Source of the DNA: Clostridia bacterium | Lineage (GTDB): Bacteria > Bacillota > Clostridia > Oscillospirales > Acutalibacteraceae | NCBI GenBank assembly: GCA_017437005.1 | Contig: JAFSBZ010000007.1 | Location: 1 to 64,000, forward strand | Direction: 5' to 3' | Length of the DNA: 64,000 bases | Shown: positions 24,042-63,062 of the stretch, in pieces | Layout of the letters: every line of letters starts with the position of its first letter | Numbering within the stretch: the stretch's first letter is position 1 | The notes under the pieces: generated by a model | Told to the model about the DNA's origin: nothing | The model's database searches: none | The model's input: the letters and a program-made list of their open reading frames with translations, nothing else | Translations under genes and position numbers: made by a program

Positions 24042-24068
24042 TTTACAATTTGTTAATAACTATACATA

Positions 24069-24108: not shown

Positions 24109-24131
24109 TAATGTATTCAATGTGTTGCACC

Positions 24132-24162
24132 AAAACCGACACAATATCTTGTGTCGGTTTTT
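24132..24162 (+). terminator. Intrinsic terminator of the Fic-RM operon
   Basis: AAACCGACACAA pairs with TTGTGTCGGTTT around a four-base loop, followed by Ts. Confidence 0.92.
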
Positions 24163-24179
24163 ATGTCAGTAAATACATA

Positions 24180-24207
24180 TTGACAAAAACAGGAAATGTG
24201 CTATAAT
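24180..24207 (+). promoter_or_regulatory. Sigma-A promoter of the AbiH gene
   Basis: TTGACA, 16 bases, TATAAT: near-perfect consensus, 30 bases before the start codon. Confidence 0.85.
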
Positions 24208-24237
24208 GACGGCAGAAATAATAAAAAGGGGATAACG

Positions 24238-25458
24238 ATGAATTTATTATTATTGGGAAACGGTTTTGATTTATATCATGATTTGCCTACAAAATATATT
24301 AACTTTTTAAATACTGTTAATTTTTTAAAAAACAATACTTTAACTGATATAAAAACAATTGGTGATGTTTTTGGTAACAAAAAACTTAATAGTGTAGATA
24401 AAGAAATTTCAAATAGTTACAATATATATAGAGAAATATACGACAAAGTAGAAATAGATTTGAATGATATTGATAGGTTAATTAATTTAGCAGAAAATAA
24501 TATATGGTTTACGTACTTATCAAAATCACTTGAAAAGGATATTACATGGATTGATTTTGAAAAAGAAATTTCAGCGGTAATTAATGTTTTTTACGAACTG
24601 TTTTTGGATAAAGATCCTCTTGTAGTTTTTAATCAACGTTTTAAGTCGAATGAAAATGTTTTAATTGCCAGAGAATTCAATTTTTATTTGCCGCAAAGCA
24701 ATAATTTTTATAGAATGGTTAGGGTGTTAGATGAATATACTATCGAATATCCATTGGGGACTGATAATAAAATAATTGACAAAGATAAAATCGTAAAATG
24801 TTTAAAGAAAGAACTTGTTGAACTGGCAGATTGTTTGAAGTTGTATTTAAAACTATTTATTGATAAATCACTTGAGATTTTAAAAAAAGAAAACTATGTA
24901 AAATGGCAATCGGTTTTTCAAAGTGTAAATTGTGCTATAACATTTAACTATACAAAAACATATGAAAAGTTGTATGGAAGTGATAGGGTTATACATCTAC
25001 ACGGAGATTTAGATCAAAATATTGTGTTAGGTATCAATCCAGATAAATTCGATAAATTTGGTTCCATAGATACAACTTTTTTGCCTTTTAAAAAATATTT
25101 TCAGCGAGTAATATATAAAACAGACACTAAGTATTTGTCATTGATTAAAAGTATAAAAGAATATAAAGATGATGTCACACTTTTTGTTATAGGACACTCT
25201 TTAGATGTTACTGATAGTGATATAATCGAAGAGCTATTTTCAATTTCCAACGAAATATTTATTCTTAATTATGATGAAATCGATGAAGCAAAACATATTT
25301 CTAATCTGATTGATATATTTGGTAAGGAGAGTTTTGATGATTTACGTGTTAATAAAAACATGACATTTATTCCAATTGATACTGATATTACGAGCGAAAT
25401 TTATAATAGTCAAGATATGTATTTTCCTACAACATTAGATGATTTGGGAGATAGATAA
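24238..25458 (+). CDS. AbiH-like phage abortive infection protein
   Basis: A 406-residue protein of the AbiH family, first known from lactococcal plasmid phage resistance. Diagnostic blocks are the start MNLLLLGNGFDLYHDLPTKY, the ITFNYTKTYEKLYG segment with DRVIHLHGDL after it, and VIGHSLDVTDSDII in the last third. The mechanism is not established; family members make infected cells stop growing. The ATG at 24238 follows AAAAAGGGG. The gene is noticeably AT-rich with AAA/AAT codons, unlike the neighbouring metabolic genes, as expected for transferred defence genes. It has its own promoter and no terminator that I could find in the 100 bases after it. Confidence 0.85.
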   Translation: MNLLLLGNGFDLYHDLPTKYINFLNTVNFLKNNTLTDIKTIGDVFGNKKLNSVDKEISNSYNIYREIYDKVEIDLNDIDRLINLAENNIWFTYLSKSLEKDITWIDFEKEISAVINVFYELFLDKDPLVVFNQRFKSNENVLIAREFNFYLPQSNNFYRMVRVLDEYTIEYPLGTDNKIIDKDKIVKCLKKELVELADCLKLYLKLFIDKSLEILKKENYVKWQSVFQSVNCAITFNYTKTYEKLYGSDRVIHLHGDLDQNIVLGINPDKFDKFGSIDTTFLPFKKYFQRVIYKTDTKYLSLIKSIKEYKDDVTLFVIGHSLDVTDSDIIEELFSISNEIFILNYDEIDEAKHISNLIDIFGKESFDDLRVNKNMTFIPIDTDITSEIYNSQDMYFPTTLDDLGDR

Positions 25459-25903
25459 GATTGTTAATGGTTTATTATATTTTAATGAATAAATTACTTC
25501 TATTTTATCGGAGCAATCCGTAATATCTTTTTATATCTGTGCTGTAAGGCACACCGTAATGACGGTATAATCGTCAATTCATGAAACATAAGCTTCAATT
25601 AACGTGTAATGTATAATTCATTTAATTTGCGTAGGGAATGGGCTTGCTCGTTCCGTTAAAAACGGATTGCAGTATTATGAATTGCGAACACAATAATTGT
25701 GCATTGTGAAAATCCCCTCACCAACCTTACGGTCGGCCCTCGTCTCAACTGCCGTTTCGGTCGGTGCTTTTGCTTTGCAGAGGTGTCCACAGGACACCCG
25801 CACCCCTTTAGGCAAGGGGCGTTAAGCATTGTGCATTTAATTACATTTTTCTCTTGATTTAACAATTTAAAATGCTATACTCTCCTTGAAAGGCGGTGCT
25901 TTT
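25459..25903. other. Intergenic stretch with repeat remnants
   Basis: No convincing gene. One GTAG-type REP copy lies at 25631-25655. Bases ~25700-25830 hold another repeat-like tract with GTGTCC/GGACAC and CCCCTTTAGGCAAGGGG hairpins, typical of dispersed intergenic elements. An open frame on the minus strand here is only a by-product of it. The first ~170 bases hold nothing recognisable. Confidence 0.6.
25631..25655 (+). repeat. Fifth GTAG-type REP copy
   Basis: GTAGGGAATGGGCTTGCTCG followed by TTCCG. Nearly identical to the copy at 9855-9879 read on the minus strand, 16 kb away, which shows the family is dispersed. Confidence 0.65.
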
Positions 25904-27523
25904 ATGACAAAAAAATATGAAAGATTTGGCGTTATGATAGATATGTCGCGTAATGCTGTTATGACGGTAGAAGCTTTAAAGCAATATTTTACTTTGCTTA
26001 AAAAAATGGGCTATAACTCGGTTATGCTTTATACCGAAGATACCTACGAGGTAGAGGGCGAACCCTATTTTGGTTATATGCGAGGCAGATACTCTATCGC
26101 CGAAATGCAAGAGCTTGATGAGTACGCAAGCAATATGGGTATTGAGCTTATACCTTGTATTCAAACACTTGCTCACTTAAATCAGGCACTTCGCTGGGGC
26201 ACAATTCCCGTTGATTGTGATGACATTATGCTTACCGATAATGACAAGGTTTATGACCTAATTGATAGAATGTTTAAAACACTTAAAAAATGCTTTAAGT
26301 CATCGTATATACATATCGGTATGGACGAGGCGCATATGTTAGGACGCGGTAAACACCTTGATATTCACGGATACGAAAGCACCAACGAAATAATAAAGCG
26401 TCATTTGGCGGCGGTTTGTGATATTGCTAAAAAATATGATTATATTCCAGTTATATGGTCGGATATGTATTTCCGCTCTTGGAATAATGGTCAATACTGT
26501 TTTATAGAGGGTGAAAAAAAGGTACCGCAAGAGGTTGTTGACGCTATGCACCCCGACGTTGTTCCGGTATACTGGGATTATTACAGCAAGGACGAAAAGC
26601 ACTATAGCGATATGATAAAAAATCACAAGCAAATATCTAAAAACGTATGGTTTGCAGGTGGTGCTTGGGGTTGGCACGGGTTTACGCCATTTAACGGGCA
26701 CACACTTGAAACTTCAATCCCTGCGCTTGATGCTTGCAAAAATCAAAATATAAAGAATATATTTATTACAATGTGGGGTAATGATGGATGCGAAAGTTCA
26801 AACTTTGCGTTGTTGCCGTCGCTTTTGTACATTGCAGAGTATGCAAAGGGTAACACCGATGAAGAAAGGATTAAAGCAAAATTTAAACGTATAACAGGTA
26901 TAGATTATGATGACTTTATGTTGATTGATATACCAAATCAGGTAGATATGAACACAAGTTGCAAATTACCACCAAACCCTGTTAAGTATATGTTTTATTC
27001 TGACTACTTCAGCGACTTTTTGGATGTTACCGTTCGAGATGATGTAAATTCATACGACTATTACGACAGTGCTGCTAAAAAGCTTTTTGCAGTTGCTAAA
27101 AAAAGCCGAAAATATGGTTATCTTTTTGATGCATCGGCAAAAATGTGCGAGGTTATGAAATACAAATATGAGCTTGGTAAAAAAACTCGTGCTGCATATA
27201 AAGCAGGGAACAAGGATGAACTTTTGCGCCTTGCCAAAAACGATTATGTTGAGGTGGCAAAGGCTATGCGTAAGTTTGGTTTGAGTTTTGAAAAACAGTG
27301 GTATAAAGAAAACAAACCTCAGGGTTTTGACGTTCAGGATCATCGCATCGGCGGTATGATACATCGTACCGATGCTTGCCGCAGAAGAATTTTAGACTAC
27401 GTTGCAGGCAGGGTAGACTCAATCCCCGAGTACGAGGAAGAACTGCTTAGCGCATATGGTAACGAACCCAGAAGCATAGAGGCGTTTAAGGTTTACTCAA
27501 CAGTAAATGTCGTGTCGCACTAA
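25904..27523 (+). CDS. Glycoside hydrolase family 20-like beta-N-acetylhexosaminidase
   Basis: A 539-residue protein with a GH20-type TIM barrel. The start FGVMIDMSRNAVMTVEALKQ and SVMLYTEDTYEVEGEPYFGY fit the barrel entry, and HIGMDEAHMLG (Asp141-Glu142) is the D-E catalytic pair that works with the substrate 2-acetamido group. GGAWGWHGF and MWGNDGCESS lie later in the barrel. There is no signal peptide, so it acts in the cytoplasm on imported HexNAc oligosaccharides. The last ~190 residues are a helical extension of unknown role. The ATG at 25904, after AAAGGCGG, is preferred to the TTG at 25886. It is monocistronic; the family assignment is good and the exact substrate open. Confidence 0.82.
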   Translation: MTKKYERFGVMIDMSRNAVMTVEALKQYFTLLKKMGYNSVMLYTEDTYEVEGEPYFGYMRGRYSIAEMQELDEYASNMGIELIPCIQTLAHLNQALRWGTIPVDCDDIMLTDNDKVYDLIDRMFKTLKKCFKSSYIHIGMDEAHMLGRGKHLDIHGYESTNEIIKRHLAAVCDIAKKYDYIPVIWSDMYFRSWNNGQYCFIEGEKKVPQEVVDAMHPDVVPVYWDYYSKDEKHYSDMIKNHKQISKNVWFAGGAWGWHGFTPFNGHTLETSIPALDACKNQNIKNIFITMWGNDGCESSNFALLPSLLYIAEYAKGNTDEERIKAKFKRITGIDYDDFMLIDIPNQVDMNTSCKLPPNPVKYMFYSDYFSDFLDVTVRDDVNSYDYYDSAAKKLFAVAKKSRKYGYLFDASAKMCEVMKYKYELGKKTRAAYKAGNKDELLRLAKNDYVEVAKAMRKFGLSFEKQWYKENKPQGFDVQDHRIGGMIHRTDACRRRILDYVAGRVDSIPEYEEELLSAYGNEPRSIEAFKVYSTVNVVSH

Positions 27524-28625: not shown

Positions 28626-31361
28626 ATGAAAAAAACACTTTCAAGAATTTTTGCAGTGCTTTTAGTAGTATCAATGCTCTTTACTCAGCTTTTGGTACCT
28701 GTATCTGCAGAAGTAAAGAACTGTGAGTGCGATCCTGCAACTCGCAAGGGCGTAAAAACACGTAGCGTTGCAGCTACTTGTGGTTACTTTGGTTACGATA
28801 TGTACAAATGTAATTCATGTAAGGGTTTGTACACAGTATATACTGATGAACCTACAGGTGCTCACACTTACGTAGATCACCCAGCAAAGGCTGAAACATG
28901 TACTGAAATAGGCTATGGTGCTTATCAGACTTGTGAGGACTGTGACTTCACATCATATGATGCTACAACTGAGGTTCCGGCTCTTGGTCATGATATGGCA
29001 GTTATTCCTGCACAGGATGCAACCTGTACTCAAATCGGTTGGGCTGAGTATGAGGATTGCACAAGATGCGATTATACAGTAGGCTATGAACCAATAGAAA
29101 AGCTTCCTCATACTCCAGCTGATCCAGTTGATGAAAATCCTATTGGCTCTACCTGTACAACACCTGCAACAGTTGACAAGGTAGTTTACTGTGGTGTTTG
29201 CGGCGAGAAGATGTCTTCAGAAACAGTTGAAACTGCACCTGAAGAGGGTCACGACTATGTTGTAATTGACAGCAAAGATCCTATCTGTAAGCCAAGAGAA
29301 GATACTACCGATGGTTACATTACATATGAATGTACAAAGTGTGGTGATACTTATACAGTTACTCTTCCCGCTCCTGAAGAGCACAGCTACGTTTTAACCG
29401 AACAGAAGCCTGACTGTGAAGTAGATGGTTTTGAAATTCATACTTGTACAGTATGTGACTATGAAAATGAAGTAGCTGTTCCTGCAACAGGTCATACAGA
29501 AGAAACAATCAAGGGTTATGCTGCTACCTGTGATGAAACCGGTTTAACAGATGGCAAAAAGTGTACTGTTTGTGGCAAAATTACTAAAGCGCAAACTGTA
29601 ATCCCTGCAAAAGGTCATACATATGCAAAGGACGACGAAGGAACAGTAATCGCTCCTACTTGTAAAGAAGAAGGTTACACAACCAAGTACTGTACAGTTT
29701 GTAAAAATGATATTGTTCAAGATGGTTCAATAGTTGCAATAGATCCTCTTAACCACGTTAAGAGCCATGTTGTTTCTGCTTACGTAGCTCCAACATGTAC
29801 TGAAGTTGGTTATACTGAAGGTTTGCAATGTGATGAATGTGGTATAACAACAAAGAGAGTTGAAGAAATTCCTGCTCTTGGCCACAACATCAGAAATATA
29901 GCTGCAAAAGATCCTACCTGTACTGAAATTGGTTGGGATGCTTATGAAAAGTGCACAAGATGCGATTACACTACTTACGTAGAAAAGGCAGCTCTTGGTC
30001 ACGAGCTCGAACCTACTATTGGTCACAAGGATGCAACCTGTGAGGTAGAAAGCTATGACTATCAGTATTGTTTAGTATGTGGTGAACAAATTAAGAAAAA
30101 TCTTGGTGCTGATGCACTTGGTCACAACTGGTCAGCATGGACAGCAGTAGATGCTGATACTCATACACGTACTTGTCAGAATGCAGAGTGCGATGTAGTA
30201 GGCGGCAAGGTAGAAACTGCTGAACACAAAATTGTTGAGCACGAAGCAAAAGAGCCAACCTGTACTGAAGTTGGTTGGGATGCTTATGTAACATGTGAAG
30301 ATTGTGATTACACAACTTATGTAGAAAAAGCAGCTCTTGGTCACCGCAATGAACGTTGGGTTGCTCAGGAAGCAACATGTACACAAGACGGTTGGTCTGA
30401 TCACATTAAGTGCGCAAGATGTGGCGAAGCAACACCTCATTCATATACACCTGCACTCGGTCACCAGATTATGAATGTACCTGCTAAGGATCCTTCATGT
30501 TTTGAAGCTGGTTGGACAAAGCATACCGAATGTGCAAGATGTGGTGAAACATCTCCATACTTTGATATCGCTCCATACGGCGAGCACGGCGAAGTTGTTA
30601 TTGACGAAGCAGTTCAGCCTACATTTGATGAAACAGGTCTTACCGAAGGTTCACACTGTGGACGTTGTAATGAAGTATTAGTTCAGCAGATCGTTATTGA
30701 TAGAGTTAAGGAAGATGTAAGCTTTACTTATGAAGCTACAGGTCTTAACGGTAGTGAATATACAGTTAACTCTGGTTATGTAACTCTCAACGTTTATATG
30801 AACGTTAACTCAACAGCAGCACGTCTTTGGGGTGCTGACCTTACCTTGAACTTCGATTCTAACCTTACTCTTACTGCAGTAGATGGTTGCGCATTTGAGT
30901 ATGCAAATAATTCTGATGTGCTTAACAACAGCATTAAGCTTGCTCAGGGTATGAACGTTGGTAGCAACTTCAAGACCTTTGAAATGGGTCAATACCTCTT
31001 TGCTACACTTACATTCAAGGTAGACAAAGACTTCTATTCAGCAAATGCAATGTTTGAAATCGTAGCTGACGAGTGTAATCTTGTACGTCGCGATATCGAA
31101 AACAACACTGATTTCTCAAATGAACTCGTAGTTGATTTTGGTACCGGTACTGAAATTTATGTTGCTCAGCTTGGCGATGCAAATGCTGACGGTAAGTTCA
31201 GTTCAGTAGACACAATGTCTCTTGCGCAGTGGTTTGCAAATGCTGACATTGATGCATATGAAGCTGTTTATGATATGAACAAAGACGGTTACATCGATGG
31301 TGACGACTTTGCTATCCTTCGTGGCGCTGTTGTTCGTGATTATAGCTATTTAGAAGACTAA
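28626..31361 (+). CDS. Secreted repeat protein with cohesin and dockerin modules
   Basis: A 911-residue exported protein. The signal peptide KTLSRIFAVLLVVSMLFTQL ends in PVSA (~28). About sixteen repeats of ~40 residues follow to ~690. Their core is PTCTEIGWDAYEKCTRCDYT...ALGH: one Cys, a CxxC pair and a His, a ligand set suited to metal binding. Residues ~695-848 read as a cohesin-like beta domain (VTLNVYMNVNSTAARLWGAD, LTLNFDSNLTL). The last ~60 residues are a dockerin with two calcium loops (DANADGKFSS and DMNKDGYIDG). The protein can therefore both bind and be bound in cellulosome fashion. GGAGAAAATT precedes the ATG. The next gene starts 16 bases after the stop codon and shares the repeat, so they form one operon. 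Confidence 0.8.
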   Translation: MKKTLSRIFAVLLVVSMLFTQLLVPVSAEVKNCECDPATRKGVKTRSVAATCGYFGYDMYKCNSCKGLYTVYTDEPTGAHTYVDHPAKAETCTEIGYGAYQTCEDCDFTSYDATTEVPALGHDMAVIPAQDATCTQIGWAEYEDCTRCDYTVGYEPIEKLPHTPADPVDENPIGSTCTTPATVDKVVYCGVCGEKMSSETVETAPEEGHDYVVIDSKDPICKPREDTTDGYITYECTKCGDTYTVTLPAPEEHSYVLTEQKPDCEVDGFEIHTCTVCDYENEVAVPATGHTEETIKGYAATCDETGLTDGKKCTVCGKITKAQTVIPAKGHTYAKDDEGTVIAPTCKEEGYTTKYCTVCKNDIVQDGSIVAIDPLNHVKSHVVSAYVAPTCTEVGYTEGLQCDECGITTKRVEEIPALGHNIRNIAAKDPTCTEIGWDAYEKCTRCDYTTYVEKAALGHELEPTIGHKDATCEVESYDYQYCLVCGEQIKKNLGADALGHNWSAWTAVDADTHTRTCQNAECDVVGGKVETAEHKIVEHEAKEPTCTEVGWDAYVTCEDCDYTTYVEKAALGHRNERWVAQEATCTQDGWSDHIKCARCGEATPHSYTPALGHQIMNVPAKDPSCFEAGWTKHTECARCGETSPYFDIAPYGEHGEVVIDEAVQPTFDETGLTEGSHCGRCNEVLVQQIVIDRVKEDVSFTYEATGLNGSEYTVNSGYVTLNVYMNVNSTAARLWGADLTLNFDSNLTLTAVDGCAFEYANNSDVLNNSIKLAQGMNVGSNFKTFEMGQYLFATLTFKVDKDFYSANAMFEIVADECNLVRRDIENNTDFSNELVVDFGTGTEIYVAQLGDANADGKFSSVDTMSLAQWFANADIDAYEAVYDMNKDGYIDGDDFAILRGAVVRDYSYLED

Positions 31362-31377
31362 TTTGGAGGAATAAGAG

Positions 31378-33768
31378 ATGTTGGTTAAAAGATTCTTTGC
31401 GATTCTTTTAGCTGCCGCTCTAATGTGTTCTGCACTGTTCTGTGTTACAGCCAGTGCAGAAACCGCTGATAACTTCAAGGTGGGAGTGGTGGCATCGACC
31501 GCCACTCCCATTTCTGTTTCTCCCCAGATTATTAACCAGGGAGAAGAAGTTACTGTTAGAGTATCAGTTGAAGAGAATACAGGTATTACATTTTTAAGAT
31601 TTACAATTAACTTTGATTCCGATGCTTTAGAGTATTTAAGCAACAAGGGCGCTAATTTGTTTGGAGTAAACGATAGTATTCAGGTTAAGGATGGATATTT
31701 AATTTACTTTATGACACTTTCAGATAAAAATTCTGATGCTACAGGTGAATTATTAGAAGTAAAATTTAATGCCAAATCTTCATTTTGTGGTGATACAAAA
31801 ATTTATACTGAATGTTCGTCTTCAAACTGCTCAAAAAATAACAACACAGTAAATTCTTATACACATGTTCCTTTCTCAAGCGATGATGCGGAGTTTTCAA
31901 TTCATAATATCACAACCGAAGGTACTGTTGTTGAACCTACATGTTTAGATAATGGTTATACTTCCTATCACTGTGATGCATGTGATACAGATGTTAAGGG
32001 CAATATAGTAAAGGCTCTTAATCATAAACTTGTTAAATATGAAGCAAAAGAACCTACCTGTACCGAAATTGGTTGGGATGCTTATGAGGCTTGCTCAAGA
32101 TGTGACTATACTACTTATGCTGAGATTCCTGCTAAAGGTCATCGCAACGAGGTTTGGGTTCAGCAAGAACCAACCTGCACTGAAGATGGTTGGACAAAGC
32201 ATACAAAATGTGTAGTTTGTGGTGAAGAATCAATTCATTCCTTACTTCCTGCACTTGGTCATGATATTGTAAATCATGAGGCTAAAGAGCCAACCTGTAC
32301 CGAGATAGGTTGGGATGCATATGAAACATGCTCAAGATGTGATTATACTACTTATGTAGAAAAGGCAGCCCTTGGTCACGATATTGTTAAACACGAAGCT
32401 AAGGCTCCAACTTGTACCGAAATAGGTTGGGATGCTTATGAGGCTTGTTCAAGATGTGACTATACTACACGTGTAGCAAAGGATGCACTCGGTCACGTTT
32501 TAATTGATGTAGAAGCAAAAGAACCAACCTGTACCGAAATTGGTTGGGATTCATACAAAAAATGTACAGAATGTGATTATTCTACTTTTGAAGAAAAGGC
32601 AGCCCTTGGTCACGATTTAATTAAGATTGAAGCAAAAGAACCCACTTGTACCGAAATAGGTTGGGACGCTTATGAAAAATGCTCAAAATGCGACTATTCA
32701 ACTTATGTTCAAAAAGATAAAGTTGAACATAACCTTATAATTAATCCAGCAAAAGAGCCTACCTGTACTGAAATCGGTTGGGATGCTTATATTACATGTA
32801 CCGAATGTGATTTTTCAACATTTGTAGAGAAAGCTCCTTCGGACCACAACTATATTGTTATTCAGGCAAAAGAACCTACTTGTACTGAAACAGGATGGGA
32901 TGCTTATATCGGTTGTTCTAATTGCGATTATTCTACTTGTGTAGAAAAGGCAGCCCTTGGTCACGATACCGTAAATCATGAGGCTAAGGCTCCAACCTGT
33001 ACCGAAATCGGTTGGAATGCTTATGAAACATGCTCAAGATGTGACTATTCTACTTACGAAGAAATTGCCGCATTTGGTCATCGTAACGAAACTCTAAATG
33101 CACAAGAGCCAACCTGCACAGAAGATGGTTGGACAGAGCACGATAAATGCGTTGTATGCGGCGAAACAACACCATACGATACAATCCCTGCTACAGGTGT
33201 TCACACTTACGCTGCTGATTGGGATGCAGATTGTGATGTTTGTGGTCAAATCCGTGAATTAACCTACACAGGTTGGGTATTGGATGACGGCAAATGGTAT
33301 TTTTATGAAAATGGCGAGCTTTTAAAGAATAAATGGTGCAAGGATAGCGTTGGCTGGGTATACCTTGGCAAAGACGGCGCAATGTTAACAAATGCTTGGT
33401 GTACAGATAGCCAAGGTAAGTGTTATGTTGGCGCTAATGGTTACGCAGTTACAAATTGTTGGATGCAAGACAGCTACGGTTGGATCTATTTTGATGCTAA
33501 CGGTTCAATGACTAAAAATGCATGGGTACAGGATAGTACAAGTTGGTGTTATCTTGGCGAAGATGGATATGCAGTTTCTAATTGCTGGATGAAAGACAGC
33601 ATTGGCTGGGTATACATTGGTAGTGATTGCAAAATGCTTAAGAATGAATGGGTACAAGACAGCAACGGTTGGTGCTATGTTGGTGCTGATGGTTACATTT
33701 TAATCGGTACTCATACTATTGATGGTGTAAAGTACACCTTTGATTCAAACGGCAATTTAGTTTCTTAA
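31378..33768 (+). CDS. Wall-anchored repeat protein with cohesin and choline-binding-type repeats
   Basis: A 796-residue exported protein. The signal peptide ends at TASA (~25). Residues ~40-185 form a cohesin-like domain (ISVSPQIINQGEEVTVRVSV, GITFLRFTINFDSDALEYL, TGELLEVKFNAKS). Eleven ~38-residue C...CxxC...GH repeats follow (~186-630), many nearly identical in DNA. The C-terminal ~165 residues are cell-wall/choline-binding repeats (GWVLDDGKWYFYENGELLKN, NAWVQDSTSWCYLGEDGYAV), which hold proteins to teichoic acid or glycan at the surface. I infer an anchoring scaffold: the cohesin could catch the dockerin of the upstream protein or of the CotH protein at 59-63 kb. TTGGAGGA precedes the ATG. 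Confidence 0.8.
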   Translation: MLVKRFFAILLAAALMCSALFCVTASAETADNFKVGVVASTATPISVSPQIINQGEEVTVRVSVEENTGITFLRFTINFDSDALEYLSNKGANLFGVNDSIQVKDGYLIYFMTLSDKNSDATGELLEVKFNAKSSFCGDTKIYTECSSSNCSKNNNTVNSYTHVPFSSDDAEFSIHNITTEGTVVEPTCLDNGYTSYHCDACDTDVKGNIVKALNHKLVKYEAKEPTCTEIGWDAYEACSRCDYTTYAEIPAKGHRNEVWVQQEPTCTEDGWTKHTKCVVCGEESIHSLLPALGHDIVNHEAKEPTCTEIGWDAYETCSRCDYTTYVEKAALGHDIVKHEAKAPTCTEIGWDAYEACSRCDYTTRVAKDALGHVLIDVEAKEPTCTEIGWDSYKKCTECDYSTFEEKAALGHDLIKIEAKEPTCTEIGWDAYEKCSKCDYSTYVQKDKVEHNLIINPAKEPTCTEIGWDAYITCTECDFSTFVEKAPSDHNYIVIQAKEPTCTETGWDAYIGCSNCDYSTCVEKAALGHDTVNHEAKAPTCTEIGWNAYETCSRCDYSTYEEIAAFGHRNETLNAQEPTCTEDGWTEHDKCVVCGETTPYDTIPATGVHTYAADWDADCDVCGQIRELTYTGWVLDDGKWYFYENGELLKNKWCKDSVGWVYLGKDGAMLTNAWCTDSQGKCYVGANGYAVTNCWMQDSYGWIYFDANGSMTKNAWVQDSTSWCYLGEDGYAVSNCWMKDSIGWVYIGSDCKMLKNEWVQDSNGWCYVGADGYILIGTHTIDGVKYTFDSNGNLVS

Positions 33769-33775: not shown

Positions 33776-33807
33776 AGAGCCGACACGTAAAGTGTCGGCT
33801 CTTTTTA
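33776..33807. terminator. Bidirectional terminator
   Basis: AGCCGACAC pairs with GTGTCGGCT, followed by TTTTT on the plus strand. It ends the surface-protein operon and lies at the 3' end of the convergent deacetylase gene. Confidence 0.9.
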
Positions 33808-34878: not shown

Positions 34879-35493
34879 TTACTCTTTAAAGAAGTGGTCT
34901 TCAACCGCGGCACATAGGTAGTGATAAACCGGCAGATGCAATTCTTGTATACGATATGTTTCGATGTGGTTAACGTGAATAATTATATCTGAGAGTGAAT
35001 CAAGACCACATTCTTTTGCGCCTACAAGTGAAATAACCTTGCATCCGATAGCGCGTGCCGTTTTAGCGGCATTCACCACGTTTTGTGAATTGCCCGAGGT
35101 GCTAATAGCAAGCAGTACATCGTCCTTTTTGCCAAGAGCGTAAAGCGCTTGCGCATAGAGTAGTGATGGATCCTCGTCATTTAAGAATGCAGTTAAAAAG
35201 GCTGTTTGCGAATGAAGCGATATTGCGGGTAAGCCCTGCATAAGACCGGCGGCTAATTGCTTATCATCAAATGCTGCTATCTGATTTTCAGTAAGCGGTC
35301 TTTTTTTAAGAAAGCCTTTCATAAGCTCGCCTACAATATGGTCGGCATCAGCAGCACTGCCACCGTTGCCGCAAATATAAAGGCGGTTGCCGTTTTCAAA
35401 TGTTTTTATAAGCAGCTCGGCAGCCTCTTTAATTTCGTTTTCACAGGATGAAAGCAGTGGGTATCTTGTTATAAGTTCTGATAAGGTTTTCAT
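34879..35493 (-). CDS. SIS-domain sugar-phosphate isomerase/binding protein (GmhA-like)
   Basis: A 204-residue single SIS domain. Visible are RLYICGNGGSAADADHIVGE (the GmhA-type phosphate-binding GGSA loop), LAISTSGNSQNVVNAAKTAR (the second SIS loop) and CKVISLVGAKECGLDSLSD. Relatives isomerise sedoheptulose-7-phosphate or act on other phosphosugars. Here it closes a beta-mannosidase/ROK kinase operon, so a sugar-phosphate from that catabolism is a more likely substrate than heptose. The ATG at 35493 follows GAGGG and lies one base beyond the upstream stop codon, showing tight coupling. Confidence 0.85.
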   Translation of the reverse strand: MKTLSELITRYPLLSSCENEIKEAAELLIKTFENGNRLYICGNGGSAADADHIVGELMKGFLKKRPLTENQIAAFDDKQLAAGLMQGLPAISLHSQTAFLTAFLNDEDPSLLYAQALYALGKKDDVLLAISTSGNSQNVVNAAKTARAIGCKVISLVGAKECGLDSLSDIIIHVNHIETYRIQELHLPVYHYLCAAVEDHFFKE

Positions 35494-35494
35494 A

Positions 35495-37945
35495 TTAAAA
35501 TCCCTCAAAATGACCAATTTTAGTTTTGTTTAAGAAGTCAATATATGTATCGTAGTTAATGCCACGAATATTATTGATAAAATGATTGCGGTAGGTATTG
35601 CCGTCGAATTCCCACTCAATAAGGAACATTTCCTTTTTATCGGGGTCAATCGTTACGGCATCAAGCTGTAAAATTCCACTCGCTTCAACTTGGCTTTCGC
35701 CACTGCAAACAACCACATTGTCGTTTATGCGTATAACCTTATAGCTAAAGGTTTTGTCTTGCGGAATTTCATTTGCCACGAAAAGATTAATTTTGTTGTT
35801 TTCATCAGGCTCGTCAAACATAAGACAAAGCGGTTGCTGTGAATTTTTTATGTAATCGTAAGCAATTTTTTTTGTAAAGTAGTAGTCAACCACTGCGTCA
35901 GAAATTTGTGGCCAACCGTCTAAAAGATTCCACCAAATAAGGCCGCCGTGGGTGGCTTTTCGTATGCGGAAGCGCTCTATCATAAACTTAAAGGCTTCTG
36001 CTTGGAAAATTTGACTTGCTTTAGCAATACCCTCGAGTGCTTGTTCGCCATCACCAAACAGTGCTTTCATTCGCTTGAAATAGTCAACCGATTCTTCTGC
36101 TGTGGCACGACCTGTGTTACCGTCCGGCATATCGCTAAACAATACCGCTACTTGTCGTAGCATAAGCGCTATGCGGTATTCATAGTGACCTATATGATCG
36201 GTTTCCATACTTGCTGCGTGAACAATGTAATCTTCGTTAGGGCGACCGTTTGGTAAAATGATTGGCCACAGTTTTTCTGGGGTAATAAATTTCTTTATAG
36301 ACTCAACGGATGGACAGCCGTGAAAGCCTGTTTCGGATGCAAAAAGCGCTGTCGCATTTTTATAATAATCACTCTTAAAGTAATTGCGCGGACCCCAAAG
36401 ATGATCTTCGGCAGGGCGGCATTTATCGATTAGAGCAAACGATGTTTCGTCTATGTAGGGTGAGCTTGGCAAATATGGTCTAAAGCCGTCATAAGCGCGC
36501 AAGACCTCGGGTAAAACCTTACGGGTAAGAACATTTTGATTTGGGTCAAGGCGTTGAGCATTTTTTTCGGCATAGGTATAAAACGCATCACATTCGTTAT
36601 CACCCGCCCAAAGCACGATAGATGCGTGTGAACGCAAGCGCTTTACGGCAATAATTGCTTCATCGCGTAGTTTATTACAAAATTCTTCATACTGTGGGTA
36701 GTAACCGCAACCCATAATAAAGTCATGCCACAGCATAATACCGTGCTCGTCACACCAGTTGTAAAATGTATCGCTCTCATAGATATTACCGCCCCAAAGA
36801 CGAATCATATTACAGCCGATATCTTCTACCATTTCGAGTGCCTTTATAACACGTTTTTCATTTTGAGAGGGGAATGCGTCAAGCGGTACCCAGTTGGTAC
36901 CCATAATAAATACTTTTTTGCAATTAATTAAAAATTCAAACTTGCCGTTTCCGTTTTCGTCGACTGTAGATGTACGAACGAGTTCAATAAGGCGAATGCC
37001 TATACGTGTGTTGTAGGTGTCGCAAAGCTCACCCTTGCGGTATAATCTTACCTCTACGTCATAAAGGTTTTGTTTGCCTTCGCCACGCGGCCACCAAAAT
37101 TCAGCGCCGCTAAAGTTTATGCTAAAATTGCGGTTTACGCCCCAAAAACGAACGCTGTGCTCAAAATGTGATTCACCACAAGTACCTGTAATTACCGCCT
37201 CATAATCTGAAAGCAAATCATCGTCGGTATGTATGCGTATTTGTCCCGAAAGCTGAGCGGTTTTATGCTTTAAATTCATATTGGCAGTGCCAAGATAAAA
37301 ATCGTCTATACGGTGACGGGGCTTTTCTATGAGTGATACACCGCGCCAAAGTCCGCCCGATACTGTACGGGGCATAATGTCCCAACCGAACATATACGGT
37401 GCCTTGCGCACGTGTAAAGAGTCTTCGTTATAGGGAAGTCCCACTGCCAAAGCGTTTTCTTCATATTCACGAGCTTCAATTACGGTTGGGTGAATGTGAA
37501 CGATAATTTTATTCTTACCTTTTTTGATATGTTTGTTTACGCAATATTCATGCTCTATAAGCATATTATCACTGTAATCTATAAATTCGTCATTAAAATA
37601 TATTTCTGCAAAGGTATCGATACCCTCAAAGCGTAAAAATGCATCACCATCAGGTAGTTTATCGAGTGTAAATTCTTTTACATACCAAAGGTGACGGTTT
37701 TCGTATTGCTGGCAAAGCAGTGTATTAGTACCCAAAAACAAGTCGGGGAGTAATCCTGCGCGTTGCATATCAAGCTCAAAGTTACCTGGTACTTCGGCAT
37801 CAATTTTTATAAAATCAACATTATTCTCAGTGTCCTTACAAAGATAATCAGGGTTCATAAAATCCCACTCAACAATGTCTTTTACTTGATTGTGTGGCGC
37901 TATATACAGTTCCCATTTACCGTTTAAATCAATTAACTGCTTCAT
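35495..37945 (-). CDS. Beta-mannosidase, glycoside hydrolase family 2
   Basis: An 816-residue GH2 enzyme that removes terminal beta-mannose. The N-terminal jelly-roll domain has LWYVKEFTL and FLRFEGIDTFAEIYFND. The TIM barrel starts near GTNWVPLDAFPS and holds CNMIRLWGGNIYESDTFYNW. The acid/base Glu is in VLWAGDNECD (~451) and the nucleophile Glu in FASETGFHGCPS (~535), both as in bacterial and animal beta-mannosidases. There is no signal peptide, so it works on imported oligosaccharides such as the Man-beta-1,4-GlcNAc core of N-glycans or mannan fragments. It lies between the ROK and SIS genes in one operon controlled from the divergent AraC side. Confidence 0.93.
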   Translation of the reverse strand: MKQLIDLNGKWELYIAPHNQVKDIVEWDFMNPDYLCKDTENNVDFIKIDAEVPGNFELDMQRAGLLPDLFLGTNTLLCQQYENRHLWYVKEFTLDKLPDGDAFLRFEGIDTFAEIYFNDEFIDYSDNMLIEHEYCVNKHIKKGKNKIIVHIHPTVIEAREYEENALAVGLPYNEDSLHVRKAPYMFGWDIMPRTVSGGLWRGVSLIEKPRHRIDDFYLGTANMNLKHKTAQLSGQIRIHTDDDLLSDYEAVITGTCGESHFEHSVRFWGVNRNFSINFSGAEFWWPRGEGKQNLYDVEVRLYRKGELCDTYNTRIGIRLIELVRTSTVDENGNGKFEFLINCKKVFIMGTNWVPLDAFPSQNEKRVIKALEMVEDIGCNMIRLWGGNIYESDTFYNWCDEHGIMLWHDFIMGCGYYPQYEEFCNKLRDEAIIAVKRLRSHASIVLWAGDNECDAFYTYAEKNAQRLDPNQNVLTRKVLPEVLRAYDGFRPYLPSSPYIDETSFALIDKCRPAEDHLWGPRNYFKSDYYKNATALFASETGFHGCPSVESIKKFITPEKLWPIILPNGRPNEDYIVHAASMETDHIGHYEYRIALMLRQVAVLFSDMPDGNTGRATAEESVDYFKRMKALFGDGEQALEGIAKASQIFQAEAFKFMIERFRIRKATHGGLIWWNLLDGWPQISDAVVDYYFTKKIAYDYIKNSQQPLCLMFDEPDENNKINLFVANEIPQDKTFSYKVIRINDNVVVCSGESQVEASGILQLDAVTIDPDKKEMFLIEWEFDGNTYRNHFINNIRGINYDTYIDFLNKTKIGHFEGF

Positions 37946-37955
37946 ATTTTCCTCC

Positions 37956-38900
37956 TTAATGGTTGTCTGCTGCTAAAGATAAAGCGGCATAATCGCCAAG
38001 GCTTTCACCCAAAGCGGCAGGTGGTATTTCTACTACCGAAAGTGATGGCGCAAGTGCTTCTTGCTTTAGTGCTTCTATCATTGTTTCTTGTAACAGGTCT
38101 TGGCTTCGTGTGTAAATACTGCCAATAACAATTTTTTCGGGATTTAGCACGTCTATCAAAATAGATAAACCGTAGCCTAACATTTCACCACATTTTTTAT
38201 ATACCGAAATAGCTGTTTTATCACCCTTGTATGCGGCTTCGGCAACCGATTGTGCGGTGACAGTGCTTAATTCGTCAAGACTTTTGCAGTAAAGCGGTGT
38301 TACACCTTTTTTTAATTGCTCTTTTGCAGCAGACTTTGCCATTTGGGCAATGCCTCCACCGCTTGCAAAGCCCTCAAAAGAACCTTCTTTTCCGTAGCCT
38401 ATGGGGCCCGTGTCACGCATACGAACGTGGCCTATTTCACCGGCATTACCGTTAGCACCCGAATATAGCTTGCCGTTAAGGATTAGTCCTGCGCCCATAC
38501 CTGTACCAAAGGTTAAGAAAATCATATTTTTCGAGCCTTTACCCGCACCGTATTTCCACTCGGCAAAGGCGCAGGCGTCAGCATCGTTTTCAAGTCTTAC
38601 ATAGCCACCGTATTTTTCTTTTAAATAATCTACAACTTTTATATCTTTAAATCGTGGTAAGTTAGGTGGAGAAATTATAATTCCCTTTTTATTGTCAAGC
38701 GGTCCGCCACAACTGATACCAATACGACTAAAATCGTAGGTTATTTCTTCGGCCAAGGCACACATTTTATCTATCATTTCATATCCCGAAATACTATGGT
38801 CGGTGGGTATGACTTTTTTATCTAAAATATGCATAATGCCATCTATTTCTTCGCCGATACTTACGGCGCATTTGGTTCCGCCTATATCAAAGCCAATCAT
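37956..38900 (-). CDS. ROK family sugar kinase
   Basis: A 314-residue ROK protein, most likely a hexose or N-acetylhexosamine kinase. The N-terminal phosphate loop is MIGFDIGGTKCAVSIG. GISCGGPLD, the sugar site LENDADACAFAEW, FLTFGTGMGAGLILNG and GNAGEIGHVRM are present. The zinc-binding CxCGxxGCxE segment normally found after GHxxV is replaced by GPIGYGKEGSFEGFASG, with every cysteine lost, so the structural zinc site is missing. There is no DNA-binding domain, so it is a kinase and not a repressor. The ATG at 38900 follows GGAG; the start is placed there because the family begins with this motif. Confidence 0.9.
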   Translation of the reverse strand: MIGFDIGGTKCAVSIGEEIDGIMHILDKKVIPTDHSISGYEMIDKMCALAEEITYDFSRIGISCGGPLDNKKGIIISPPNLPRFKDIKVVDYLKEKYGGYVRLENDADACAFAEWKYGAGKGSKNMIFLTFGTGMGAGLILNGKLYSGANGNAGEIGHVRMRDTGPIGYGKEGSFEGFASGGGIAQMAKSAAKEQLKKGVTPLYCKSLDELSTVTAQSVAEAAYKGDKTAISVYKKCGEMLGYGLSILIDVLNPEKIVIGSIYTRSQDLLQETMIEALKQEALAPSLSVVEIPPAALGESLGDYAALSLAADNH

Positions 38901-38921
38901 AATCTCAACTCCTTTAATACA

Positions 38922-58763: not shown

Positions 58764-61700
58764 TTATCCAACATACCAAGAAGAAAATCTATCATCTAAA
58801 CGAGGAACTACTGTGTCAAGGTAGTCTTGAATTTGGGATAAATCAAATCCCGGTATTGGATCGTTAGGACGCGTCCATTTTTCTGTTTCACGTTCTAATA
58901 TTTCTTGTGGTATTGTGCTGTAAAATTCATTAAATTTTGACATTACATATTTGGTGTCTAAAACACTACTACGCAGTTCAAAATAACGAGCAGCTATTTC
59001 CGGTTTAAAGTGCTCTTCAAAGCGCTGCCACAGTAAACTGTTACTACCGTTTACGACGCCGGATGAATAGTTGTATAGATAGCCGCCTGTCCAATGTGCT
59101 CCCCAAGTGGTGTCGAGGTCGTAAAGCGACGGATACCATACGTTGCCGTCATAGGTTGCAAGCAACATGTTTTTGCCAACGTTATCAGGCATCCAGGCAT
59201 AGTTCATCATAATATAATAATTCAAAGTTGAATCAAGATTTAAATATTCGCTAAATTTTGATTTAAAATCTTCGTCACTACTGTTAAGAACAAAATCTAC
59301 CAAGCGTTGAACTTTTGAAAGGGTTGCGTCGTCATCGGGGCCTACTTCAACCTCCCAACCGCTAAAATCGGTAGGGATTTCTTTAAACAGTACAGATTCA
59401 GCCCAATTATCACCACCAATTACAATATGGTTAGGATTGTCTTTATCCATATTAAATTGCCATTCGTCTTTTGGAATATTCATAGTGTAAAGGCCGTGAA
59501 ATTCGCCATTTATATATACTTCCACAGGGAAACCATCGATAGCACCGTTGTTTGGGGCGGTATTTAGAAGCCCATATTTTTTCTGCATTTCACCGGCAAG
59601 TTTTGCTGTAACAACATTACGTGAATGTGTTTTGTCTATCCAGTTGGCTTTTAAACAGTATTTACTTTGCTCACCCCAGCCAACATCTATACCCATTTTG
59701 TTTTCGTAACTGTCATCTTCGTAGAAGGTGATAGTATAGTTCTTTTTGCGCCACTGTGTACTTGATGAACCTTGAATCTTTATTTTGGCACTTCTATTTA
59801 CAATTTGTTCTTTGCTACGATATTCAACGTCTATGTTACAAACAATATCCTTATTTCTTTGTGATTCGAGAGTTATTTCGGACATATCACCCGTAAAATA
59901 AAGTTTTGGACAATAATCTTCGTTAAAATCATTACATAATACACCTTTATTTACGCGATTACATTCGCCCGCAACGTAGTTGTGCCCAAGCTTTTCACCT
60001 GTTGTTTGTTCACAATATATGCACGATTTTGGAGAAGTACAGGTTGCGGCGGTGTATCTATGTATACAAACATCCCAACCATTTAAGTATTGCATTACTA
60101 TAGCTACATCTCTTCCGTTGATTTTACCATCACGGTTCACATCGCAAGCGTCATAAACTATATTAAGTTCCCAACCGTTTATATGTTGTATTATAAGCGA
60201 GTAATCTCTACCGTTAATTACGTTGTCGTTGTTAGCATCACCGTGTATAAAGGCGACTCTTGATTCACCGCAAGTACTACATTCGGTAACAATATCATCC
60301 TCGTATGTATGACCTGTGGCGTCAACCGATATGGTTTCGCGAGAAATTTCGATATAACATTCGGTACAGTAGTATACCAAATCGTATGAGCCGTTTGTTG
60401 TGCAATTGCCAACTACGGTATTTTGGTATTGCGGCTTGCTGAGTATATGCGCCTCTGAAATTCCACTAATACCACAATCACAATATAAGCTATGTGTTCC
60501 ATCGGTGTTGTCAACGGCAGTAACATAGTGAAACGCGCGAAGCTCGGGTAATGTGTCGGTTGCAAACCAGGCATTACCAACACCTACACCTTTAAGTTCT
60601 TCGGCAGTTATGGATTTAATTTGTTTATCTGTATATTTCCAAGAACCATCGGTAAATTCAACTGTACCTGCAACGCCGTCTGTATAGCAGTTTTCAAAAC
60701 AGTCAGGTTCATTTAATCTGTAGCTATAGTGCATACGGGTATTAACAATATCGCAACCCAACGCAACAGTATTTCTAACCATATTGTAAAACATATCTAC
60801 ATCGGTATCGTTAACATTTGTTTGAATTTTGACGTCGAGTTCGGCAGGCTTTCGGCTATCCGATTTAATATTGTTTCTTCCCATGCCTATAAGAGGAATT
60901 TTGTATTGATAGGAATCACCATAGTATGCATCGTTACCGTAAACCAAACAGTTGTCAACAATTACGGCTTCTTCGTAAGAGTTACCCATAATAATTCCTG
61001 CACGCTTATTCGCGTTGCTATCAGACACACTGCTTCTCATATAGCAATTAGCAACAATACAAGAATCAAACCAAATTACACCGTTTGTTTTTATACCGTA
61101 ATCTACACCATTACCAACAGCGGCGATAGCGCCTATTTGATAGTTAGTAGCAGTTGTTGAAAGGTAAGAATTCATAACTGCTATGTTGTGTATTGATGCA
61201 CCACCATCAATGCTTGAAAAAAGGCCCGCATTATTAGAGGATTGTTGATATAATCCGTAAATTTTTACGCCGTTACCGTCAAAATAACCGCAAAAGGATG
61301 ATTGCTCCCAACCTTTGTTTGGCCACGGATAAAGCCAGCTACTGTATTTTTCAAAAAACGTTTTTACCTCGGCGGCGGTTTTTAAATCTAATATATCGTT
61401 TGCAAAAACGGTATCCTGCAACACGATAGTGCCAATGCCGTCAGCAATTTTAAAATATTTTGGGCTTCCGTCTGAAAGGGTGCTTACATCTACTTTGCTT
61501 GAGATAAGATATGCAAGCTCGGCCGCCGTGTTAATTATAACAGGGTCGTTTTTAGTGCCTGCCGATTGGTCAATAAAGCCTGTTGCTATTGTACCATCCC
61601 AATAAATGATTTCTCTTTCAGAACACGATAAATCAGCCTCACATATGGTGCATTTACCTTTTTCTAAAGTACAGGCTGATTTAAGACCACCAAAACCACA

Positions 61701-62993
61701 AATACAGGTTTCGCTATGGGTACCGTCATTGTTTTTGACGTATGAAATTTCTTTGTGAGCTGAGCGCAGCTCGGGATAATTTTCATCGTCAGCTAACCAT
61801 ATGCTCCAGTCAAGATTCATATTATCCACTGCAGCAAAGCCTTTAATTTGCGCTTTGGTAAGCTGTGTTACACGTCCTGTAAAGTCCTTTGGGGTTGAGG
61901 TGTATCCCGTACCACCGATTAATATGTCAGTACCTGAAATTTGATCGGTATAAACATTTGTAAAATGACTTGGAAGTCCCGAGTGTTGAACGTCGGCGTA
62001 AGTATTACAGCTTGTGGTAGCGTATGGTGTAATACCCAATACTATACAGTCGCTTACTGATAGAGCATTTGTGCTTATAAAGCCCGCAATACCACCGTGT
62101 ACACCACGTAGAGTAGTGTCGGTTTGGGTGCTTTTTTCAAAGCTTGAAATAAAGTATTCTTCGTCAAGATTTACAAAGCAGTTTTTTATATTAACAGCAC
62201 CGTTTACATAGATAGTTTCGGTTGTGTCACCGTCACCGTCGGTATCCTCGGTATCTTCGTATGAACTAAGGTTTTCTGCATAGCCCACAATACCACCAAT
62301 GCCAACACCAAAACCGGATGTTGTAACCTCGAGATGAGAATCGCTTACAGAACAGTTTTCAATAGTGAGGGAGTTGTTGCCGTTACCTGCATGATAACCT
62401 ACAATGCCTCCCACCGTGTTTTTTGCAGTAAAAGAAGCAAATTTAACGTTAATATTTTTTATGGTTACGTCGCCTCTGGTTACTGAAAAAAGGCCTGCAT
62501 ACATACCTACGTTTCCTTCGGTATGATTGGTCCACGCACCGTAAACCGTAACACCGTTGCCGTCGAAAGTGCCCTGAAAACCGGGCGAACCACCCGAGTG
62601 GTTTTTGCCCGAACTCATAATCGCCGATATATTTTGCTTTAATGTTCCGTTAAAATCCAAATTACCGCGTGACAAATCAAACGCGCTAATACCGTCAGCC
62701 ACCTTGTAGTATTTGCCTACAGTATCGTTGGAGATACCTTTTGCAAGGTAGACAAATTCTTCTGCGGTGTCTATTATAATAGGATCGTCTTTGGTGCCTG
62801 TTTCGCCGTTATCGACAAGAACAGAGTCGTACCATTTACTTGTACTGCCGGCTTCGATAAGATAATCACCAAATTCAAGCAAGTCGGTAGTACCGCTTGT
62901 ACATGCGGCATTTGCCACAAGTGTGTTTGATGAAATTGGTATCATAGCAATTATTAATACTATTGCCATAACAAACGATAGCGCTTTTTTCAC
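58764..62993 (-). CDS. Secreted CotH-kinase protein with dockerin and GLUG-like beta-helix region
   Basis: A 1,409-residue exported protein. The GTG start at 62993 follows GGAGGT and begins the signal peptide KKALSFVMAIVLIIAMIPIS, ending around VANA. Residues ~45-900 hold two similar blocks that open with TAEEFVYLAKGIS/TAAELAYLISSK and then GLUG-like beta-helix repeats (GTFDGNGVTVYGAW, GYFDGNGVKIYGLY). Cys-pair modules (CTECYIEISRE, CSTCGES) follow. A dockerin lies at ~917-975 (DANNDNVINGRD and DVNRDGKINGRD, both followed by NGW). The CotH kinase domain is ~1029-1409 (KIKIQGSSSTQWRKKNY, DLDTTWGAHW). CotH enzymes phosphorylate proteins; the dockerin suggests this one is delivered to a cohesin. 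Confidence 0.85.
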   Translation of the reverse strand: MKKALSFVMAIVLIIAMIPISSNTLVANAACTSGTTDLLEFGDYLIEAGSTSKWYDSVLVDNGETGTKDDPIIIDTAEEFVYLAKGISNDTVGKYYKVADGISAFDLSRGNLDFNGTLKQNISAIMSSGKNHSGGSPGFQGTFDGNGVTVYGAWTNHTEGNVGMYAGLFSVTRGDVTIKNINVKFASFTAKNTVGGIVGYHAGNGNNSLTIENCSVSDSHLEVTTSGFGVGIGGIVGYAENLSSYEDTEDTDGDGDTTETIYVNGAVNIKNCFVNLDEEYFISSFEKSTQTDTTLRGVHGGIAGFISTNALSVSDCIVLGITPYATTSCNTYADVQHSGLPSHFTNVYTDQISGTDILIGGTGYTSTPKDFTGRVTQLTKAQIKGFAAVDNMNLDWSIWLADDENYPELRSAHKEISYVKNNDGTHSETCICGFGGLKSACTLEKGKCTICEADLSCSEREIIYWDGTIATGFIDQSAGTKNDPVIINTAAELAYLISSKVDVSTLSDGSPKYFKIADGIGTIVLQDTVFANDILDLKTAAEVKTFFEKYSSWLYPWPNKGWEQSSFCGYFDGNGVKIYGLYQQSSNNAGLFSSIDGGASIHNIAVMNSYLSTTATNYQIGAIAAVGNGVDYGIKTNGVIWFDSCIVANCYMRSSVSDSNANKRAGIIMGNSYEEAVIVDNCLVYGNDAYYGDSYQYKIPLIGMGRNNIKSDSRKPAELDVKIQTNVNDTDVDMFYNMVRNTVALGCDIVNTRMHYSYRLNEPDCFENCYTDGVAGTVEFTDGSWKYTDKQIKSITAEELKGVGVGNAWFATDTLPELRAFHYVTAVDNTDGTHSLYCDCGISGISEAHILSKPQYQNTVVGNCTTNGSYDLVYYCTECYIEISRETISVDATGHTYEDDIVTECSTCGESRVAFIHGDANNDNVINGRDYSLIIQHINGWELNIVYDACDVNRDGKINGRDVAIVMQYLNGWDVCIHRYTAATCTSPKSCIYCEQTTGEKLGHNYVAGECNRVNKGVLCNDFNEDYCPKLYFTGDMSEITLESQRNKDIVCNIDVEYRSKEQIVNRSAKIKIQGSSSTQWRKKNYTITFYEDDSYENKMGIDVGWGEQSKYCLKANWIDKTHSRNVVTAKLAGEMQKKYGLLNTAPNNGAIDGFPVEVYINGEFHGLYTMNIPKDEWQFNMDKDNPNHIVIGGDNWAESVLFKEIPTDFSGWEVEVGPDDDATLSKVQRLVDFVLNSSDEDFKSKFSEYLNLDSTLNYYIMMNYAWMPDNVGKNMLLATYDGNVWYPSLYDLDTTWGAHWTGGYLYNYSSGVVNGSNSLLWQRFEEHFKPEIAARYFELRSSVLDTKYVMSKFNEFYSTIPQEILERETEKWTRPNDPIPGFDLSQIQDYLDTVVPRLDDRFSSWYVG

Positions 62994-63033
62994 AAAATAT
63001 ACCTCCAAACTAAGAATTAATTTGTATATAACG

Positions 63034-63062
63034 ATTATAACATCAAACAAAGGGAATTTCAA
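63034..63062 (-). promoter_or_regulatory. Promoter of the CotH protein gene
   Basis: Minus strand: TTGAAA, 17 bases, TATAAT, about 40 bases before the GTG. Confidence 0.78.

Follow-up and report, generated by a model that had tools for sequence, protein, structure and literature searches.

Cohesin-dockerin docking is best known for assembling cellulases, which raises the question of what it might serve in genes that carry neither a catalytic nor a cellulose-binding module. We addressed this question for two adjacent open reading frames (ORFs), A and B, in a 64,000-nucleotide (nt) stretch of the genome of a Clostridia bacterium of the family Acutalibacteraceae (assembly GCA_017437005.1, contig JAFSBZ010000007.1, positions 1 to 64,000, hereafter the window); the host genome comprises 1.97 Mb in 49 contigs and is 85% complete. 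A first-pass annotation had described the two products as secreted proteins with about 16 and 11 copies of a repeat containing one Cys, a CxxC and a His (Cys3-His), one protein adding a cohesin and a dockerin and the other a cohesin and wall-binding repeats, and had taken them for a non-cellulolytic surface scaffold. That description was confirmed, with some qualifications given below, and the scaffold could be extended to the whole genome; the conserved A-B operon and a hairpin inside ORF B had not been noticed before. What emerges is a scaffold of a known kind in a new setting, together with an unsuspected conserved RNA element.

We propose that ORFs A and B form one operon, whose products would make up a surface scaffold in two tiers within a non-cellulolytic cohesin-dockerin system. 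B would be the anchor, with its wall repeats on the cell, its repeat array as a spacer and its N-terminal cohesin receiving the dockerin of A, while A would be an adaptor that adds a second long spacer and a cohesin-like domain able to take a further dockerin protein. The Cys, CxxC and His of the repeats would most likely hold zinc and so make each array a stable, extended rod. The hairpin, about 100 nt past the start codon of B, would reduce the amount of B compared with A, through partial termination of transcription or through protection of the 3' end of a processed A message. We lean towards this explanation as a whole, that is, a two-tier surface scaffold operon with metal spacers and a ratio-setting hairpin, and its parts are graded separately where they are discussed. 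The features concerned, all on the + strand, are as follows.

28626..31361, +: ORF A, adaptor-like scaffold with Cys3-His repeats, a cohesin-like domain and a dockerin (911 aa, amino acids)
28719..30725, +: Cys3-His repeats of ORF A (a profile finds 15, inspection by eye 16)
30744..31154, +: cohesin-like domain of ORF A (roughly residues 707-843)
31170..31322, +: ORF A dockerin (Dockerin_1, residues 849-899)
31362..31377, +: gap of 16 nt between ORFs A and B, with GGAGG ahead of the ORF B ATG
31378..33768, +: ORF B, anchoring-like scaffold with a cohesin, repeats and wall-binding repeats (796 aa)
31478..31513, +: RNA hairpin within the coding sequence of ORF B (stem of 15 pairs, loop of 6 nt; from a scan for terminator-like hairpins)
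31534..31845, +: ORF B cohesin (Pfam, search of the host genome, profile against solved cohesins)
31930..33252, +: repeat array of ORF B (11 repeats, closed by a half unit)
32254-33064, +: tandem period of 117 nt within the ORF B repeat array
33262..33762, +: ORF B wall-binding repeats of the choline-binding type (Choline_bind_2 and Choline_bind_3 by Pfam; PDB sequence matches)
33776..33802, +: terminator-like hairpin 3' of ORF B (matched on both strands)

Architecture of the A-B pair

The N-termini of both proteins look like signal peptides by eye. ORF B combines a cohesin with wall repeats, both over their Pfam cut-offs, as in an anchoring scaffoldin: its cohesin scores 27.9 bits (E 3e-6, cut-off 24.1), a profile from five B N-termini matches solved cohesins (best E 1.8e-4), and its C-terminus matches Choline_bind_2 at E 2.5e-13. 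The C-terminal repeats resemble choline- or glucan-binding wall repeats, although several of their aromatic positions look by eye like Cys. Judged by these domains, B is very probably an anchored surface scaffold. In ORF A the dockerin is over its cut-off (25 bits against 22.9, E 2.2e-5, and E 5e-7 in the genome search), whereas the cohesin of this putative adaptor is seen by profile comparison alone. An iterated profile from the cohesin-like domain reaches cohesins recognised by Pfam, and in profile-profile comparison it matches 11 of the 14 Pfam cohesins of the host genome, grouped together, with a probability of 84.9% and E 6.4e-6; the domain is therefore a probable cohesin. The sixteenth repeat of ORF A, seen by eye, has a Cx4C knuckle. 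Pfam, searched at E <=1 for ORFs A, B and C (a further ORF of the window, see below), gave neither a catalytic nor a cellulose-binding family for A or B, as the first reading had held. A second host-genome protein (L040:3598-4968, - strand) combines a cohesin-like domain of the A type with a dockerin of the type to which most dockerins of this genome belong; here and below, L labels denote loci and G labels genomes used in the surveys, some L loci, such as L040, being in the host genome.

A scan with ORF B yielded 42 loci, mostly in assemblies that by their titles come from ruminant gut Clostridia and Oscillospiraceae. An adjacent A-B pair is present in eight loci, namely the window, L112, L107, L114, L096, L109, L098 and G620, L107 and L112 being close relatives. 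In L107, L112, L114, L096, L109 and L098 the first gene of the pair closes with a cohesin-like domain and a dockerin, and the second opens with a cohesin. A gap of 16 nt separates the two genes in the window, L112, L114 and L107; the spacing is 34-65 nt in L096, L109 and L098 and 3 nt in G620. At the junction (31362-31380 in the window) the sequence GGAGG(T/A)ATAAGAGATG ahead of B is near-identical in the window, L112, L114 and G620. The first 400 nt of B are identical in L112 and G183, and the first 240 nt in L114 and G922. When the window ORFs of at least 150 aa were compared with the 42 loci by blastp, almost nothing was found besides A and B, the remainder being matches to the repeats or the dockerin of ORF C and one weak match. 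The surrounding neighbourhood is therefore not conserved, and by this comparison the A-B pair behaves as a unit.

The end of B differs between relatives: it consists of wall repeats in the window (Pfam) and in L098 (by eye), of a dockerin in L114 (Pfam), and of a tail resembling a membrane helix in L096 (by eye), while the B of L109 leaves its contig before its end. We read B as an anchoring tier with an exchangeable attachment. In L107 the B relative is in two pieces (L107:10237-11981), and it is whole in L112; both loci also have a further downstream gene with a Pfam cohesin, in which inspection by eye adds repeats and a membrane helix at the C-terminus.

Several observations weigh against the proposed scaffold. 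The cohesin-like domain of ORF A has neither a Pfam match nor a PDB sequence match, so that its assignment depends on a weak similarity, and in L112 the end of B is a dockerin-like stretch that Pfam does not list. In addition, the pair is rare. Among 300 genomes of the family, the C-terminal region of ORF A was found in 6 at E 1e-5 and the cohesin of ORF B in 16, with strong matches in the host genome and G183 only in both cases. Among 394 genomes of the order, the N-terminus of ORF B was found at E 1e-15 in four, including G593, where the match is another cohesin gene without the operon; it was also found in 1/391 genomes of the class (the host genome) and in 2/63 of the family of G620. Among 113 stretches of viral contigs no relative was found. 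Finally, many dockerin proteins of the host genome match no family besides the dockerin, and these may include enzymes of a kind not yet recognised.

The closest parallels to the two proteins are found in Ruminococcus flavefaciens, as described in PMC4081043. The ScaC adaptor, like ORF A, has a dockerin and a cohesin (in A a probable one) in one protein, and the ScaE anchoring scaffoldin, like ORF B, has a single cohesin and a cell-surface anchor. In contrast to ScaC and ScaE, the present proteins have long Cys3-His arrays and no cellulase cargo was found, and where ScaE is attached covalently, ORF B has wall repeats.

The hairpin inside ORF B

The hairpin in the coding sequence of ORF B is the most stable of the 9279 windows of 48 nt in 43 genes of the window, at -26.4 kcal/mol (mean -6.6, sd 3.5). 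The only two other hairpins in the window with at least 13 pairs and at least seven G-C pairs both lie between genes, one of them touching a stop codon. A comparable hairpin is kept in seven of the eight A-B pairs (the window, L112, L107, L114, L096, L109 and G620), where its stem starts 96-107 nt past the start codon, always in the same codon phase. It is also the most stable coding window of the locus in L112, L107, L114 and G620, and in L096 and L109 it is surpassed only by a second strong hairpin (about 8042-8090), which precedes the shared one and lies in the part of B that encodes the signal peptide. G620 may be regarded as an independent check, as it was found after the hairpin had been noticed.

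Random synonymous recoding gave an equally stable structure in none of 2000 trials each for the window, L112 and L114, in none of 1000 each for L096 and L109 (with the codon usage of the window), in 2 of 2000 for L107 and in 6 of 2000 for G620. In the stem of the window, Val is encoded three times by GTG, a codon that makes up 8% of the Val codons in seven window genes. Pairing, too, is maintained between relatives. Across six relatives all 90 of 90 hairpin cells are paired and four pairs are changed on both sides, whereas partners slid by 1-3 columns pair in 48-68% of cells; none of 500 shuffles reached the observed percentage paired, number of cells changed on both sides or covariation score. 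When the seventh is included, with the pairs of G620 counted on loop-centred segments because multiple alignments put its hairpin out of register, 77/77 cells of an 11-pair core are paired, and within this core one pair shows four pair types and another three different Watson-Crick types.

Not all measures point the same way. L098 has a B gene with no comparable hairpin, and two of the alignment statistics are ordinary: the number of pairs changed on both sides was equalled in 85 of 500 shuffles and the number of further pair types in 258 of 500. Even so, we consider it almost certain that the hairpin is a selected RNA element, and as such it represents a clean case of an RNA structure preserved within a coding sequence. 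A search of Rfam with positions 31200-31700 gave a single match, at E 1.5 and 18 bits against a gathering score of 39. Our literature search was limited, and we make no claim that the hairpin is absent from print beyond it.

As for its function, precedents exist among operons of Clostridia. The subunit ratios of the cip-cel cellulosome operon are set by stem-loops that follow its scaffoldin gene (PMC4423207). In ABC-importer operons of cellulolytic Clostridia, internal terminators set the ratios and have longer GC-rich stems and a lower U content (PMC9045158). Like these elements, the hairpin is stable and placed after an upstream gene that should be the more abundant of the two, and it is conserved; unlike them, it is not between genes, where only 16 nt separate A from B, but inside the coding sequence of the downstream one, past the region for its signal peptide. 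By analogy, the hairpin might set the A:B ratio, a proposal on which we find ourselves evenly divided.

The main rival to this ratio reading is that the hairpin acts on translation, a ribosome pause just past the signal peptide of B aiding export, with no role in the ratio of transcripts. Its position, 96-107 nt past the start codon in all seven cases and just beyond the hydrophobic N-terminus (by eye), is what one would expect of such a pause, and the second strong hairpin of L096 and L109 lies within the signal-peptide region itself. On the other hand, a scan of the host-genome loci showed that other secreted scaffold genes have no such hairpin at their starts, and the hairpin is marked as terminator-like by the scan. 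We regard a pause in export as possible, though doubtful.

Probable docking partners and candidate cargo in the host genome

The A-B pair does not stand alone in its genome, where Pfam detected 14 cohesin matches in 11 ORFs and 32 dockerin matches in 32 ORFs (ORFs A, B and C counted in); two of the dockerin matches are weak, and one of these two is below the cut-off. Which of these modules bind each other was approached by trees of 27 cohesin modules and 37 dockerin modules, the latter including 30 of the 32 dockerins of the host genome, with the two weak ones excluded. The dockerin of ORF A falls into one cluster with the L112 and L114 dockerins (support 0.94), separate from most host-genome dockerins, while the cohesin of ORF B groups with those of L112 and L114 (0.97) and next with those of L096 and L109 (0.96). 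Since the two genes have kept their adjacency and their modules form clades of their own, we infer that the dockerin of A probably docks on the cohesin of B. Alternatively, A and B may be ordinary adhesins whose dockerin and cohesins bind other partners and not each other, and there are partners enough, the genome holding 13 other Pfam cohesins and 31 other dockerins. Nevertheless, adjacency kept in eight loci and clades that stand apart from the bulk would be difficult to explain in this way, and we think it rather unlikely.

For the genome as a whole, the presence of both cohesins and dockerins is what one sees in a cellulosome, whereas the plant-wall glycoside hydrolases that should carry the dockerins are not seen. 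Pfam detected no glycoside hydrolase among the cohesin and dockerin ORFs (35 others, searched together with one repeat protein at E <=0.01, as well as A, B and C) of this 85% complete genome. A CBM_4_9 match in another dockerin protein is below the cut-off, as is a transglutaminase match, and no cellulose-binding module is present on the scaffold proteins, A or B. GH48 is a hallmark of cellulosomes; none of four genomes had a match over the cut-off, and the host genome had one weak match of 15.7 bits. The comparison supports the view that the A-B pair belongs to a genome-wide, non-cellulolytic cohesin-dockerin system.

What this system carries is not entirely obscure, as the first-pass annotation had assumed: dockerins are found on proteins with LRR_5 (a leucine-rich repeat, LRR, family), on an endonuclease I and on a CotH kinase. 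LRR_5 is over the cut-off in eight cohesin or dockerin ORFs, some of which add LRR_8 or FNIP; Endonuclease_1 is over it in one dockerin ORF and in the neighbour of that ORF, which has no dockerin; a Cadherin-like domain is over it in one cohesin ORF, and CotH in a candidate cargo gene within the window:

58764..63062, -: ORF C, candidate cargo, a CotH kinase whose dockerin is of the bulk type of the genome (Pfam)

A similar set is known from R. flavefaciens FD-1, whose group 4 dockerin proteins bear LRR and transglutaminase domains and for which roles in structuring the cell surface have been suggested (PMC2930009). The likeness lies in dockerins on leucine-rich-repeat proteins; in FD-1, as described there, these stand beside a large cellulosome, whereas here Pfam finds no glycoside hydrolase with a dockerin. 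Thirty-two dockerin matches without a glycoside hydrolase suggest that docking may allow a gut bacterium to present adhesin-like proteins and further enzymes on its surface.

The Cys3-His repeats

In 21 selected window repeats, a selection that left out repeats without a ligand or badly aligned, the only invariant residues are C, C, C and H. A fairer count is given by 889 profile matches from the window, the host-genome loci and the 42 loci, where, counting aligned positions, conservation is 97-100% for the four putative ligands, 96% for one glycine and at most 89% for all other columns; this count is biased towards intact repeats, since the ligand columns dominate the profile, and 779 of the 889 reach the His column. 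Around 816 distinct CxxC motifs, the first Cys and the downstream His are both present in 627 cases, the Cys only in 39, the His only in 79 (many of those displayed being shorter repeats with the Cys closer) and neither in 71, so that the two are lost together with an odds ratio of 14, although related repeats are not independent. A downstream His is present in 718 units, of which 608 have a CxxC knuckle, 45 Cx4C, 20 CxC, 18 Cx3C and seven no knuckle, and in 20 units the third Cys is replaced by a His 5-7 residues after the second. Such conservation makes it quite likely that the repeats bind metal.

The disulfide explanation, by which the Cys would brace a metal-free adhesin or stalk, is improbable: the proteins do look secreted and are rich in Cys (50 and 49), but three Cys per repeat is an odd number for disulfides, the His is as conserved as the Cys, and neither the exchange of Cys for His in those 20 units nor the joint loss of the first Cys and the His would be expected.

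Where exactly the metal would sit may be hinted at by the ends of the arrays. At clean starts (no Cys in the preceding 55 residues) an extra His precedes the first Cys in 11 of 13 cases; at clean ends (a CxxC with no Cys in the next 60 residues) the first Cys is absent in 27/31, the downstream His is present in 0/31 and the upstream His in 31/31. Both tests were devised post hoc, with the data already seen, and close relatives are counted in each. A wider count of starts gave 76 with the extra His and nine without, many of the 76 being internal units with variant knuckles; a Cys up to six residues before the extra His was found in 17 of these 76 starts as compared with 20 of 610 internal units. 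A looser end filter, by which many internal units are counted as ends, gave a downstream His in 77 of 91. The pattern of a His before the first Cys, together with a CxxC that no His follows, suggests a site that spans two neighbouring repeats, which is the simplest reading of the array ends. A site made of the Cys, CxxC and His of the same repeat is disfavoured by the array starts and ends. The earlier suggestion of one metal per repeat therefore stays plausible as far as ligand conservation goes, whereas its placement may be between neighbours and not within a single repeat.

One known family resembles the repeats: zf-POGZ of Pfam matches those of ORF B over the cut-off (E 6.3e-9), with a CxxC followed by a His in both, although the best-matching stretch takes in no more than positions 22-41 of 43, and the match probably reflects a shared ligand pattern and not descent. 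Searching PDB sequences with a profile of the repeat turned up nothing useful (best E 0.061). A literature search for cohesin and dockerin with 'zinc ribbon' found nothing, from which we make no wider claim that the repeat is unpublished, and one for Cys-rich repeats of clostridial surface proteins gave nothing relevant by title and abstract.

What, then, would an array of metal sites be for? Spacing and metal storage were both among the options first considered. At E 1e-6 the repeat was found in 56 of 291 genomes of the class, among them the host genome, and within the host genome at least two repeats are found in 6 of 11 ORFs with a Pfam cohesin versus 1 of 26 dockerin ORFs without one (P 0.001, ORF A being left out of the comparison). 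Because the repeat is common in the class and concentrated in cohesin proteins, a spacer fits best, and metal storage receives no support of its own. A surface store or sink for metal, merely held in place by the cohesin, dockerin and wall repeats, would make use of about 27 putative sites in the two proteins, and relatives have up to 122 repeat matches in a single open frame. Yet the repeat number varies widely, the repeat occurs commonly and in few copies beside many other domains, and in the host genome it is mostly placed between a cohesin and an anchor, so we consider such a store improbable as well. Given how widespread the repeat is in the class, many unannotated surface proteins would be explained once its metal site were known. 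Taken furthest, the spacer reading leads to a cellulose-independent surface organelle in some gut Clostridia, in which a wall-anchored scaffold of rods, with metal sites interlocking neighbouring repeats and with its subunit ratio set by the covarying hairpin inside the anchoring gene, would display LRR proteins, a nuclease and a CotH kinase; we offer this picture tentatively and hold it, in its entirety, to be rather unlikely.

Some neighbouring genes of the window may be mentioned. Beside the A-B pair is a GH20 gene with a GH20C C-terminal domain (25886-27523, +), and downstream of the pair lies a GH2 - SIS - ROK cluster (34879-38930, -), both without a dockerin match. At 161-1030 (-) there is a collagen-like repeat protein (Pfam Collagen, E 9e-16). 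Consecutive genes at 20358-25458 (+) encode a Fic-domain protein, a 919-aa ORF that by eye resembles a restriction-modification enzyme, and an AbiH-family protein, and may form a defence cluster.

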